Origin: an uncultured Bacteroidales bacterium
Lineage (GTDB): Bacteria > Bacteroidota > Bacteroidia > Bacteroidales > Bacteroidaceae
Reading direction: 5' to 3'
Assembly: GCA_902763885.1 (NCBI GenBank)
Contig: CACWTU010000018.1
Span: 1 to 33,130 of the forward strand
DNA length: 33,130 nucleotides
Under the pieces are notes generated by a model, which saw only the letters and a program-made list of their open reading frames with translations, made no database searches and was not told the DNA's origin. Positions within the stretch are counted from its first letter, which is position 1, and every line of letters starts with the position of its first letter. The position numbers were made by a program, and so were the translations under genes. This document shows, in pieces, positions 5,131-11,638 of this stretch.

Positions 5131-5168
5131 TAGCTGCAAAGTTAATGATTTTAGGCACAAACTTAGCA

Positions 5169-5176
5169 CAAAAGTA
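5169..5176 (-). promoter_or_regulatory. Candidate -7 box for the HprK/S26/PqqD/ABC operon
   Basis: On the minus strand this reads TACTTTTG, about 38 bases before the kinase ATG at 5130. It lies in the left arm of the inverted repeat. No TTG is found 19-21 bases upstream on this strand, so the promoter is incomplete by consensus. Confidence 0.35.
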
Positions 5177-5191
5177 TCGTATCCCTGTGTC

Positions 5192-5223
5192 ATTGCCGAT
5201 GACACAGGGATACGATACTTTTG
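5192..5223 (+). promoter_or_regulatory. Candidate upstream leu promoter inside the inverted repeat
   Basis: ATTG at 5192-5195, 20 bases, TACTTTTG at 5216-5223. The -33 part falls in the loop of the inverted repeat, which is why the mirror-image promoter on the other strand lacks it. It would give a transcript running through the second leu promoter and the leader. Confidence 0.4.
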
Positions 5224-5263
5224 TGCTAAGTTTTGCGGTTACTTCAAAAAAAGAGGGTTTTGT

Positions 5264-5294
5264 TTTGTCAGTTTGATAGGAGTGTATAACTTTG
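5264..5294 (+). promoter_or_regulatory. Main leu operon promoter
   Basis: TTTG at 5264-5267, 19 bases, TAACTTTG at 5287-5294: a full match to the Bacteroidetes housekeeping promoter. Transcription would start near 5301, about 25 bases before the leader peptide ATG. Confidence 0.75.
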
Positions 5295-5326
5295 CGGCGC
5301 AAAAAGCAAAAAGAAAGAGAAAATAT

Positions 5327-5395
5327 ATGCGACTGCAAGGCTTGATTATTCTATCAATTATTATCATTCCGGACTGCCGGTGTGAGAAAGCCTGA
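5327..5395 (+). CDS. leu/ilv leader peptide (22 codons)
   Basis: A short reading frame starts at the ATG at 5327, after an A-rich stretch, and stops at TGA 5393-5395. Its 22 residues include three Leu (3, 6, 9) and six Ile, with Ile-Ile at 7-8 and four Ile in a row at 11-14. The last codons (TGT GAG AAA) overlap a segment, TGTGAGAAAG at 5381-5390, that can pair with the 5' arm of the downstream terminator. This is the layout of a ribosome-controlled attenuator. Stalling at Ile or Leu codons would free that segment to block the terminator; reaching the stop codon would cover it and allow termination. Confidence 0.8.
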   Translation: MRLQGLIILSIIIIPDCRCEKA

Positions 5396-5438
5396 CGCAT
5401 ATATCTGAACTGAGTACAGAAACAAAACAATACGCGAT

Positions 5439-5473
5439 AAAGCCTTTCTCACAAGAGTGAGAGAGGCTTTTTT
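5439..5473 (+). terminator. Attenuator terminator of the leu operon
   Basis: The arm 5439-5452 (AAAGCCTTTCTCAC) pairs with 5457-5470 (GTGAGAGAGGCTTT) over 14 positions, one of them G-U, with a 4-base loop and a following T-run (5468-5473). The competing pairing is 5381-5390 with 5444-5453, a 10-base perfect match. Position between the leader peptide and leuA makes it a conditional terminator. Confidence 0.85.
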
Positions 5474-5502
5474 GTTTGACCAACATTAACAAACAAAATA
5501 GA

Positions 5503-7008
5503 ATGTCAGACAGGATCATTTTCTTTGACACCACGCTCCGGGACGGCGAGCAGGTCCCGGGATGCCAGCTCAACACCATTGAGAAGATTGAGGTGGCACG
5601 CCAGCTGGAGCAGCTGGGTGTGGATGTGATTGAGGCCGGATTTCCGGTAAGCAGCCCGGGTGATTTCAACTCGGTAGTGGAGATATCAAAAGCCGTGAGC
5701 AACCCTATTATCTGCGCCCTTACCCGTGCCGTAGAGGCCGATATAGACGCAGCTGCCGATGCCCTGCAGTACGCCAGGCTAAAGCGTATCCACACCGGCA
5801 TAGGTACAAGCGATGAGCATATCCGCTACAAGTTCAACAGCACCCGAGAGGAGATTCTGGAGCGCGCCGTGGCAGCCGTAAAGTATGCGGCATCCAAGCG
5901 TTGTGAGGTGGAGTTCTACGCCGAGGATGCCGGCCGTACCGATAACGAATACCTGGCACGCGTAGCCGAGGCTGCAATCAAGGCCGGTGCCACCATAATA
6001 AACATACCCGATACCACAGGTTACTGCCTGCCCGATGAGTTCGGCGCCAAGATAAAGTACCTGATGGAGCATGTAGATGGCCTGGCAGGCGGCAAGGCCA
6101 TACTCTCCACCCACTGCCACAACGACCTGGGTATGGCCACCGCCAATACCATGAGCGGGATCCTGAACGGAGCCCGTCAGGTGGAGGTTACCATAAACGG
6201 AGTGGGTGAGAGGGCCGGCAACACATCGCTTGAGGAGGTTGCAATGATACTCAAGTGCCACCATGACCTGCCGCTGGAGTGCGGAATCAACACCCGGCGC
6301 ATAACCGCCGCCAGCCGACTGGTGTCATCGCTCATGAGCATGCCGGTGCAGTTCAACAAGGCTATCGTGGGCCGCAACGCGTTTGCGCACTCCAGCGGCA
6401 TACATCAGGACGGAGTACTCAAGAACACCAGCACATATGAGATAATCAACCCGGAGGATGTGGGCTTGGAACAGGGTGACATAGTGTTGACTGCACGTTC
6501 CGGAAGGGCAGCCCTGAAACACAGGCTCGCTGAACTTGGCGTGGAGTTGAAGGGCGATAAGCTGGACCGTGTATATGAACAGTTCCTTAAGCTGGCAGAC
6601 AAGAAGAGGGAATTGACTAATGATGATATACTGATGCTGGCTGGGGCCGATATGGCCATAAACAAGAAGGTGCGTCTTGAAAGCCTTCAGGTGCTTGCCG
6701 GCAAGGGTGTCAATCCATACGCAAAAATCCGCCTTATGGTAGATAAAGAGAGTTTTGAGGCGGAATCGGCAGGAAATGGACCGCTTGATGCATCAATCAA
6801 GGCTCTCAAAAAGATAATAAAGCGTGACATGATACTTAAGGAGATGACAATCCAAGCTATTTCAAAAGGCTCTGATGACGTTGGTAAGGTACACATGCAG
6901 GTAGAGACAGGCGGTCATCTCTATTACGGATTCGGTTCAGATACCGATATAGTTACCGCCAGTATCGAGGCTTATATAGATTGTATCAACAAATTCAGAC
7001 CTGAGTGA
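5503..7008 (+). CDS. leuA: 2-isopropylmalate synthase
   Basis: It joins acetyl-CoA and 2-oxoisovalerate, the first step of leucine synthesis. The 501 aa protein has the catalytic DTTLRDGEQ at residues 9-17, the metal-binding HCH at 204-206, the GNTSLEEV segment and a C-terminal allosteric domain (about 370-501), so leucine feedback inhibition is likely. I chose ATG 5503 (MSDRIIFF); an upstream TTG at 5476 would lie right behind the attenuator. It is the first gene of the leu operon; its TGA overlaps the leuC ATG (TGATG). Confidence 0.95.
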
Positions 7009-8402
7009 TGGGAAGGACACTTTTTGACAAGATATGGGATGCGCATGTAGTGCAGGCCATACCCGACGGTCCTACACAGTTGTACATAGACCGTCTGTAT
7101 TGCCATGAGGTTACCACCCCGCAGGCTTTTGATACCATACGTGACAAGGGTTGCGGCGTGCTGCGCCCCGAGCGTGTGGTTGCCATGCCTGACCATAATA
7201 CGCAGTCGGACTGCAGTGACCGCATTGACGATCCGGTGGGACGCAAGCAGGTGGAGACACTTGAGCGTAACTGCCGCGAGTTTGGAATAAGGTGCTTTGG
7301 ACTGGGTAGCCCCGATAACGGAATCATCCATGTGGTGGGCCCTGAGAAAGGTCTTTCACTGCCCGGAATGACAATAGTGTGCGGTGACTCGCATACATCC
7401 ACCCACGGTGCAATAGGTGCAATAGCAATGGGTATAGGCACATCCGAGGTGGCTCAGGTGCTGGCTTCACAGTGCATACTGCAGCGCAAGCCCAAGACCA
7501 TGCGCATCAACATTGAAGGTACGCTTGGTGAGGGTGTCACCGCTAAGGATGTGGCGCTCTATATCATGGCGCAGATGACCACATCGGGCGCTACCGGCTA
7601 TGCCGTGGAGTATGCAGGGCAGGTGGTTCGTGACATGAGCATGGAGGGACGTCTTACGCTCTCCAACCTCTCTATCGAGATGGGCAGCCGTGCAGGTCTG
7701 ATAGCCCCTGATGAGACCACGTTCAGCTGGCTTAAGGGACGTGAGTTTGCACCAAAAGGCGCAGATTGGGATGTCGCAGTAAACCGTTGGAGACAGCTAC
7801 GTACGGATGACGATGCGGTGTTTGACCGTGAAGTTACCTATTATGCCGATGACATTGAGCCGCGTATCACATACGGCACAAATCCTGGTGCGGGTATTGC
7901 GGTAGGCGGTACTGTTCCCGTTATGGAGGGCTTGACGGATGCTGATAAAGATCAGCTTAAGGTACAGCTTGATTATATGCAGTTCCGTCCCGGTCAGAAG
8001 CTGGAGGGTACACCCATAGACTGGTGTTTCTTAGGCGCATGTACCAACGGCCGTATTGAGGATTTCCGTGCTTTTGCAAGTGTGGTACAGGGCCGCCGTA
8101 AAGCTCCCGGCGTTACTGCGTGGCTGGTGCCCGGATCATGGGCTGTGCGTCGTCAGATAATAGAGGAGGGCCTGGACAAGATACTGGAGGATGCAGGTTT
8201 TGAACTGCGTCTGCCGTCATGCTCGGCCTGTCTGGCCATGAACCCTGATAAGGTTCCGGCCGGTAAGCTGTGCATATCAACCTCAAACCGTAACTTTGTG
8301 GGCCGTCAGGGACCCGGAGCCAGAACCGTGCTGGCCAGCCCTCTCACTGTGGCTGCCAGCGCCGTGACGGGCGTAATAACTGACCCCCGTAAACTCTTGT
8401 GA
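7008..8402 (+). CDS. leuC: 3-isopropylmalate dehydratase, large subunit
   Basis: With LeuD it isomerises 2- to 3-isopropylmalate. The 464 aa protein begins [14 protein letters not shown], contains the [11 protein letters not shown] motif, and has the three 4Fe-4S cluster cysteines at 345 (GACTNGR), 405 and 408 (CSAC). The start codon overlaps the leuA stop, and its own stop lies 3 bases before the leuD fusion ATG, so translation of leuA, leuC and leuD appears coupled. Length and motifs are normal for the family. Confidence 0.95.
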
Positions 8403-10552: not shown

Positions 10553-11638
10553 ATGAAACTAAAGATTGCTGTTTTGGCCGGTGATGGCATCGGCCCGGAG
10601 ATAATGGAGCAGGGTGTGGCAGTGACAAGTGCTGTGGCCCGCAAGTTCGGACATGAGGTAGAGTACCATGAGGCCATATGCGGTGCTCATGCCATTGACC
10701 TGGTGGGTGATCCGTTCCCCGATGAGACTTTCCGCACCTGTATGGATTGTGATGCGGTGCTGTTTGCCGCTGTGGGTGATCCCAAGTATGACAATGACCC
10801 TACATCGAAGGTGCGCCCAGAGCAGGGCCTGCTGGGTATGCGCAAGAAACTGGGACTCTTTGCAAACATTCGCCCCATTGAGACTTTTGACTGTCTGGTA
10901 CACAAGTCACCTCTTAAGGATGAGATTGTACGCGGTGCTGATTTCATCTGCATCCGTGAGCTTACCGGCGGTATGTACTTCGGTCCAAAAAAGGAAGGAA
11001 CTGATGAGGCTTTTGACACCAATCTGTACAGCCGTGCTGAGGTTGAGCGCATTCTGCGTGTAGGTTATAAGTATGCCCGTGCACGTAAGCACCACCTTAC
11101 CGTGGTTGACAAGGCCAATGTGTTGGCCAGCTCACGTCTGTGGCGTAACGTAGCTATGGAGATAATGAAAGAGTATCCTGATGTCACTACTGATTTCATG
11201 TTTGTAGATAACGCCTCCATGCGTATGATTCAGGAGCCTCGTTTCTTTGACGTGATAGTGACCGAAAACACTTTTGGCGATATCCTGACTGATGAGGCAT
11301 CATGCATAACCGGTTCCATGGGTCTGCTGCCCAGCGCATCCACAGGTGAGCATACTCCGGTATTTGAGCCCGTGCACGGATCATGGCCTCAGGGCAAGGG
11401 CATGAACATAGCCAACCCGTTAGCTCAGATATTGAGTGCTGCCATGATGTTTGAGTATTTCGGCCTCAATGAGGAAGGCGCTTTGATCCGTAAGGCCGTC
11501 CAAGCCTCCCTTGATGCCAATGTCCGCACCCCTGAGATCCAGGTCTCCGGTGGCGCCACTTACGGCACCCGCGAGGTTGGTCAGTGGATATGCAATTATA
11601 TAATTGAAAATTTTTGGAGCAGCGAGAGGAGAGACTAA
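10553..11638 (+). CDS. leuB: 3-isopropylmalate dehydrogenase
   Basis: NAD-dependent oxidative decarboxylation of 3-isopropylmalate, the last operon-encoded step. The 361 aa protein shows GDGIGPEIM at residues 9-17, [14 protein letters not shown], the metal ligands in DNASMRM and [14 protein letters not shown], and [10 protein letters not shown] in place of the usual EPVHGSAP. The gene begins 12 bases after the leuD fusion. Its last residues ([12 protein letters not shown]) run into AT-rich repeat sequence (AATTGAAAATT) and probably are not part of the ancestral C-terminus. Confidence 0.95.

Follow-up and report, generated by a model that had tools for sequence, protein, structure and literature searches.

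How is a leucine operon controlled when a short open reading frame rich in isoleucine codons and an intrinsic terminator stand between its promoter and its first gene, leuA? The locus that raises this question belongs to an uncultured Bacteroidales bacterium and lies in a window of 33,130 nucleotides (the whole stretch of DNA analyzed here; contig CACWTU010000018.1 of assembly GCA_902763885.1). Leader-peptide attenuation is a textbook mechanism, and an initial annotation, made from the letters of the DNA alone, had read this region as a complete ribosome-stalling attenuator. We follow up this reading with RNA folding, a comparison of leuA loci and covariance-model searches of other genomes. 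We find that the region is very probably a ribosome-stalling leader-peptide transcription attenuator which would sense charged tRNA-Ile and tRNA-Leu.

Results

Parts of the element upstream of leuA

The features of the element and its operon are collected in Table 1. The leader peptide, MRLQGLIILSIIIIPDCRCEKA followed by a stop codon (translation of 5327-5395), devotes 9 of its 22 codons to six Ile and three Leu, with four consecutive Ile codons at 5357-5368, just as the initial annotation had it. The IIII run is unique to this leader among the 381 ATG-initiated short ORFs of 14-35 codons on both strands of the window, and its Ile+Leu fraction is reached by 3 of the 381. The terminator (stem-loop 5439-5470) has a 14-bp stem with six G-C pairs, a 4-nt loop and a T-run, and it lies roughly 30 nt upstream of the leuA start (5503). 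Strand 2, at the end of the leader ORF, is a perfect 10-bp complement of strand 3 in the terminator 5' arm; this pairing is matched by 1 of 5000 dinucleotide shuffles of 5327-5438. The terminator stem and, at these coordinates, the 10-base pairing had been proposed in the initial annotation, and both hold up. The fold of 5300-5480 has a z-score of -6.0, with equal stability in 0 of 200 shuffles, and the leader/attenuator region is single-copy in its own genome.

We take the promoter, TTTG-19 nt-TAACTTTG, to fit the Bacteroides -33/-7 consensus; a sigma-70 promoter scan of the window did not report it. The initial annotation had placed a promoter here, and it is present: in the 110 nt before the leader ATG, the motif TAnnTTTG turns up at 52 of 52 leader loci (defined below), compared to 92 of 1040 mononucleotide shuffles. 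A near-perfect palindrome (5160-5232, at least 20 pairs) also lies between the leu promoter and the divergent gene, with 10 other genomic matches, four of them near full length and six single-arm. This palindrome is a member of a palindromic repeat family.

Table 1. Features of the leuA leader region and its operon (positions in the window).
Feature	Position	Strand	Details
Promoter, Bacteroidota type	5264..5294	+	-33 TTTG 5264-5267, 19 nt, -7 TAACTTTG 5287-5294
Predicted 1:2 (protector) hairpin	5323..5404	+	computed fold
Leader ORF	5327..5395	+	22 codons + stop TGA (5393-5395)
Additional leader Leu codon	5333-5335	+	translation
Sensor codons Leu6-Ile7-Ile8-Leu9-Ser10-Ile11-Ile12-Ile13-Ile14	5342..5368	+	translation
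Antiterminator strand (strand 2)	5381..5390	+	within end of leader ORF
Intrinsic terminator	5439..5473	+	stem 5439-5452/5457-5470, loop 5453-5456, T-run 5468-5473
Antiterminator partner (strand 3)	5444..5453	+	most of terminator 5' arm
leuA, 2-isopropylmalate synthase	5503..7008	+	NF002086, TIGR00973 above cut-off
leuC, 3-isopropylmalate dehydratase large subunit	7005..8402	+	TIGR00170 above cut-off
Fusion of LeuD (residues ~5-206) and CimA-like citramalate synthase (~212-710), 713 aa	8399..10540	+	LeuD models above cut-off
leuB, 3-isopropylmalate dehydrogenase	10553..11638	+	TIGR00169 above cut-off

Conservation across leuA loci

We compare 81 leuA loci, which are the window and the best 80 of 587 confirmed ones, a sample that tilts to close relatives. 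An automatic test asks for a terminator no more than 140 nt from leuA and an ATG-initiated leader whose Ile+Leu share is 20% or more; 51 of these 81 loci (window plus best 80 of 587) pass it, as do 5 of 620 other ORFs within the loci. The earliest terminator rule missed L004-L011 and L013; a second rule found 47 of the 81 loci and 2 of 405 shuffles, and among its hits L018 and L067 resembled chance. Curation by eye removed one locus from the automatic set (L062, whose leader goes with an AT-rich chance hairpin) and added two, L036 with a poor T-run and L040 with Ile+Leu slightly under 20%. A leader, a terminator and a pairing between leader end and terminator are thus found together at 52 of the 81 loci (window plus best 80 of 587) and the leader is absent at the other 29; the loci are mutually related, and counts over them are not independent. 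The initial annotation had named the upstream regions of related leuA genes as the place to look for leaders with Ile and Leu codons, and this is where they are found. Named hosts that carry the leader include Bacteroides ihuae, Segatella copri, Hoylesella oralis and Paraprevotella xylaniphila. Across the 52 leader loci, between 23 and 70 nt separate the leader stop from the paired terminator arm.

Seven leaderless loci (L045, L055, L061, L066, L067, L070, L081) share, by eye, a stretch resembling AAGGTAWAAAG that lies from a few to about 30 bases before leuA, shortly after a promoter-like TTTGC.

Covariation and energetics of the terminator and antiterminator

In an alignment of 48 terminators (the near-duplicates L002, L003, L006 and L007 left out), 92.7% of cells are paired and 8 of the 14 pairs have double-sided changes; one pair is open in 29 of the 48 loci. 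The 29 double-change cells compare with a mean of 7.9 after shuffling, and 0 of 500 shuffles, which ignore the relatedness of the loci, equal the alignment in each measure. Sliding the partner by 1-3 columns lowers the pairing to 35-69%.

For the antiterminator we use the 38 loci that fall outside the window clade and give 32 distinct rows; the window-clade loci are nearly uniform here. Pairing reaches 87.8% of cells. Reshuffling the arms among loci gives a mean of 82.1% and a maximum of 85.9% (0 of 2000, again ignoring relatedness). The inner pairs outside the window clade show replacements of G-C by A-T, G-C by C-G and A-T by T-A, and three end positions are open in 12, 8 and 13 of the 32 rows. 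Window-clade strands are of the type TGTGAGRRAG with CTTTCTCACA, and most other loci have GGAAGTGAG with CTCACTTCC. Because the antiterminator strand extends beyond the stop codon in six loci (L048, L049, L058, L060, L073, L078), it is conserved as RNA and not as peptide. Compensating stem changes, which the initial annotation had put forward as a check, are therefore seen in both helices, for the antiterminator outside the window clade.

When strand 2 is freed, the segment from strand 2 to strand 3 is predicted to fold into the antiterminator in 51 of 52 loci, in the window at -18.5 kcal/mol. At equilibrium over 5381-5475 the terminator (-30.0 kcal/mol) beats the antiterminator (-20.3 kcal/mol) once its 3' arm is present, so that the switch would have to be kinetic. 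Timing likewise decides in other attenuators.

The competing 1:2 hairpin

A stalling attenuator also needs a structure that holds the antiterminator strand when the ribosome is elsewhere. The predicted 1:2 hairpin, which is absent from the initial annotation, pairs 5323-5331 with 5396-5404, 5338-5343 with 5388-5393, 5364-5367 with 5382-5385 and 5369-5372 with 5377-5380, and it would mask most of that strand. The region has a z-score of about -3.2 in the window and falls below -2 in 31 of the 52 leader loci (median -2.4), leaving 21 that do not. RNAalifold gives the 1:2 fold -18.5 kcal/mol for 11 window-clade loci, compared to -0.6 for 11 Bacteroides-like and 0.0 kcal/mol for 27 Prevotella-like loci, the last two from poor alignments. 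As modeled, the 1:2 hairpin appears to be the weakest part of the attenuator, with partial support. The description of the attenuator as complete thus stands for the leader, the terminator and the antiterminator, and less well for the 1:2 hairpin that such a switch needs.

Signs of leader translation and ribosome spacing

Codon usage is counted over 48 distinct leaders from the 52 loci (1201 codons). Ile makes up 18.8% and Leu 14.4% of leader codons (226 and 173), compared to 8.5% and 6.8% in leuA. The use of CUA is more skewed still, at 53 of 173 leader Leu codons (31%) against 42 of 1628 in leuA (3%; Fisher p 3e-32); RNA pairing could be the source of part of this leader codon bias. The other two leader frames hold 86 and 77 stops, and among ten aligned window-clade loci a 3-nt indel in the leader leaves the frame intact.

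In 41 of 52 loci exactly 12 nt lie between the last Ile or Leu codon and the antiterminator core (range 1-16), and the last Ile codon of the window is at this distance too. A ribosome reaches about 12 nt ahead of its A site, and therefore a stall at the final sensor codon would leave the antiterminator strand just uncovered.

The operon and its link to isoleucine

The third gene of the operon is a fusion whose second part has its top match in NF042433 (CimA), at 637.7 bits under a cut-off of 950, and is likewise below the cut-off of the citramalate synthase model TIGR00977; since both fall under their cut-offs, we use the name CimA by best match only. LeuD and CimA matches are also adjacent and in the same frame in loci L002-L005 and L008-L014, and open frames of about 715-750 aa, the size of such a fusion, occur in many genus-mates. 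CimA makes citramalate, which LeuC, LeuD and LeuB convert to 2-oxobutyrate for isoleucine. Threonine deaminase is named for none of the five PALP-domain proteins in the window's genome, which is 91% complete (matches listed to E 1e-30): these are CysK, TrpB, a TrpB-like protein, ThrC and one more, whose top match is threonine synthase at 115.9 bits, below the cut-off of 303.

The leucine operon may therefore double as an isoleucine operon. We attribute the six Ile against three Leu codons of the leader to the operon's also carrying a CimA-like enzyme of the isoleucine route, likely the reason for the Ile codons. To call the element a "leu" attenuator understates an operon that includes this enzyme.

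The same association is seen across the 81 loci (window plus best 80 of 587). A cimA gene lies within 7 kb after leuA in 68 of them, 50 with a leader; in the 10 loci with enough flank and no cimA, a leader is found in 0 of 10, and 3 of the 81 had too little flank for this test. Thus every leader locus with sufficient flank, 50 of 50, carries cimA (Fisher p 1e-5 for the association, a value inflated by the relatedness of the loci). The reverse is not the case, since 18 of the leaderless loci carry cimA. Some cimA-less loci differ in the whole operon, as three of the 10 have leuA alone and one has only leuA-leuC.

Proposed mechanism and alternatives

From the parts, their conservation and covariation, and the ribosome spacing, we infer the following sequence of events. 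RNA polymerase would start near 5300 and a ribosome would translate the leader. With ample Ile- and Leu-tRNA, the ribosome would reach the stop codon and cover 5381-5390, or the 1:2 hairpin would re-form after its exit; with the antiterminator strand unavailable either way, the terminator would fold and transcription would end near 5473. When Ile (or Leu) is short, the ribosome would stall within 5342-5368. A stall on the last Ile codons would put its front edge at about the start of the antiterminator strand and open the 1:2 hairpin, letting 5381-5390 pair with 5444-5453 before the terminator 3' arm is made. Having formed the antiterminator, the transcript would be extended into leuA-leuC-leuDcimA-leuB. 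Because the CimA-like part would feed isoleucine synthesis and the Ile block adjoins the antiterminator, we infer that isoleucine is the stronger signal.

The same mechanism could instead take leucine as its main signal, with the Ile codons secondary. This would suit an operon in which leuA, leuC, leuD and leuB are leucine genes, a leader set in which the rare CUA codon is strongly enriched among Leu codons, and the many leaders outside the window clade that have LL beside the antiterminator. Yet Ile outnumbers Leu in the leaders (226 against 173 of 1201 codons), it is the Ile block that comes closest to the antiterminator in the window clade, cimA is co-operonic wherever a leader locus has enough flank (50 of 50), and the five PALP proteins of the 91% complete genome include none named threonine deaminase. 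We consider a leucine-led switch rather unlikely.

Two further readings would do without the ribosome as a sensor. The strong, conserved RNA structure is what one would also expect from another kind of regulated terminator, such as a riboswitch, a T-box or a protein-bound leader, above an ORF that is not read by ribosomes for control. We think this very improbable given the Ile and Leu richness, the CUA enrichment, the 86 and 77 stops of the two alternative frames, the frame-preserving 3-nt indel and the 12-nt spacing, together with the absence of any Rfam match at gathering score in the window. That the terminator merely insulates leuA from upstream transcription, with the short ORF and its pairing due to chance, we regard as scarcely credible: the palindrome at 5160-5232 and the divergent gene do put other transcription signals nearby, but the promoter comes before the terminator, as it does at each of the 52 leader loci, the arrangement recurs in 52 of 81 leuA loci (window plus best 80 of 587) while 5 of 620 other ORFs pass the automatic test, and terminator and antiterminator both covary.

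Related leaders before other operons

We build a covariance model from 48 leuA-leader loci and search three genome sets, which overlap and include the window's genome and other genomes used in building the model. It matches at least 79 of 295 genomes of the order (E 0.01, 10 candidates scored per genome), at least 25 of 395 of the phylum (E 0.001, 7 candidates scored per genome) and 23 of 37 relatives (E 0.01). Of 30 loci from the order search, one being the window, 24 precede leuA and six ilvD. We inspected 27 more, namely 15 new loci from the phylum search and 12 of the 27 new ones from the relatives search, and these precede leuA (8), ilvD (6), ilvE (4, one 268 nt away), an ilvN-like gene (2, a weakly matched acetolactate synthase small subunit), a thrA-like gene (6) and a PaaK-like ligase (1). 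The aspartokinase calls behind "thrA-like" rest on a family model in two cases and on N-terminal likeness in four. The model search, suggested in the initial annotation as a check, thus brings in further leaders before leuA and before ilvD, ilvE, ilvN-like and thrA-like genes.

The codons change with the operon. The ilvD leaders (L129, L131, L134, L138-L140, L180, L183-L185, L147, L148) are rich in Leu, Ile and mostly Val and are followed by a terminator; Val accounts for 36 of 205 residues in the sensor part of 12 ilvD leaders, whereas for 47 leuA leaders the figure is 32 of 773 (p 1e-9); one ilvD leader, L138, contains zero Val. Of the 127 residues in the six thrA-like leaders, 32 are Thr and 33 are Ile; these leaders, of which MTINNTTIITIITTGINFGGR is an example, stand at L149-L152, L155 and L157, loci from other members of the class. 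Thr and Ile codons are found in the E. coli thr leader as well, and in this the two are alike. Upstream of ilvD in the window's own genome, we see no such attenuator leader.

These leu-, ilv- and thr-type leaders may be one common element, or they may be alike through a terminator sequence common in the phylum. It is possible, and we put it forward tentatively as a little short of an even chance, that they represent a single Bacteroidota attenuator layout retuned by codon swaps, and that the leu operon of the window's species is in effect also an Ile operon, answering mainly to Ile. If true, the shared layout would consist of an antiterminator strand at the leader end, set at a fixed ribosome-length from the sensor codons, and a stereotyped terminator, and the codons would be retuned to Ile/Leu for leuA-cimA, to Leu/Ile/Val for ilvD, to Ile (with some Val) for ilvE and ilvN-like genes and to Thr/Ile for thrA-like genes.

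A separate observation concerns the PaaK-like arylacetate-CoA ligase. In 9 of 28 readable PaaK-like loci of the same genus (30 were fetched, and in two the start was not found), namely L190-L192, L203, L208, L213, L214, L218 and L219, the ligase gene is preceded by a tyrosine leader (for example MRVNSYIGYYYYYYRT), arms of the GTGGGGCA and TGCCCCAC types and a terminator, in this order. The ligase operon at L221:1682-8647 (minus strand) holds, after the ligase gene, IorB over its cut-off, IorA under its cut-off and a symporter, together with what we take to be ACT and aminotransferase genes. A tyrosine attenuator, if real, would point to this operon as a route from arylacetates to aromatic amino acids. 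The window's own genome (L199) has the ligase without a tyrosine leader. We rejected candidate aromatic leaders at L194, L195, L206, L211 and L212, which look like the ends of upstream genes.

Discussion

What would such an element add to the known RNA switches? In the window no Rfam family is matched at its gathering score: Thr_leader (RF00506) scores 30.1 bits against a gathering score of 55, and Leu_leader is absent among the 14 matches to E 10. A scan of 11 further loci, of about 190, returned rRNA and tRNA matches only. The trp leader-peptide attenuator known as Bacteroid-trp RNA (RF01692) serves another operon with other codons than those seen here; its model matches nothing in the window and 0 sites in the window's genome, and it does match the control, Bacteroides ihuae. 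A published table gives this RNA as a candidate cis-regulatory RNA of Bacteroidetes (PMC2864571). Proposed leaders in the same phylum as ours come from Flavobacterium psychrophilum, with reported strong clues of leader-peptide attenuation upstream of amino-acid operons (PMC9723704), and from Bacteroides thetaiotaomicron, where short ORFs in long 5' UTRs are described as reminiscent of leader peptides (PMC7366714); as far as the main texts go, the former has no "leuA" or "ilv" and the latter no "leu" as a whole word. Searches of the open-access literature turned up no description of a leu leader in Bacteroides or Prevotella, and the form of attenuator seen in these Bacteroidales of gut and rumen appears to be uncatalogued.

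Many Bacteroidales would gain a concrete amino-acid-sensing switch, one that falls below Rfam thresholds in the window and in the 11 other loci, and the Ile codons of a "leucine" leader would be tied to the citramalate route of isoleucine synthesis. Since attenuation by stalling needs a ribosome close behind RNA polymerase, these leaders would also offer a direct test of transcription-translation coupling, which is of interest in a phylum where translation starts largely without Shine-Dalgarno pairing.

It is with the enterobacterial leu, ilv and thr attenuators that the element compares most directly. The likeness drawn in the initial annotation is borne out in how the switch appears to work, outside the Rfam families of those leaders: in both there is a short leader ORF with codons for the product, followed by mutually exclusive antiterminator and terminator, and the E. 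coli leu leader has the rare CUA among its Leu codons, as do the leaders here. The differences from the enterobacterial systems are that here the leader ORF itself contains the antiterminator strand, at its end, that Ile codons outnumber Leu codons, and that a leuD-cimA fusion is part of the operon.
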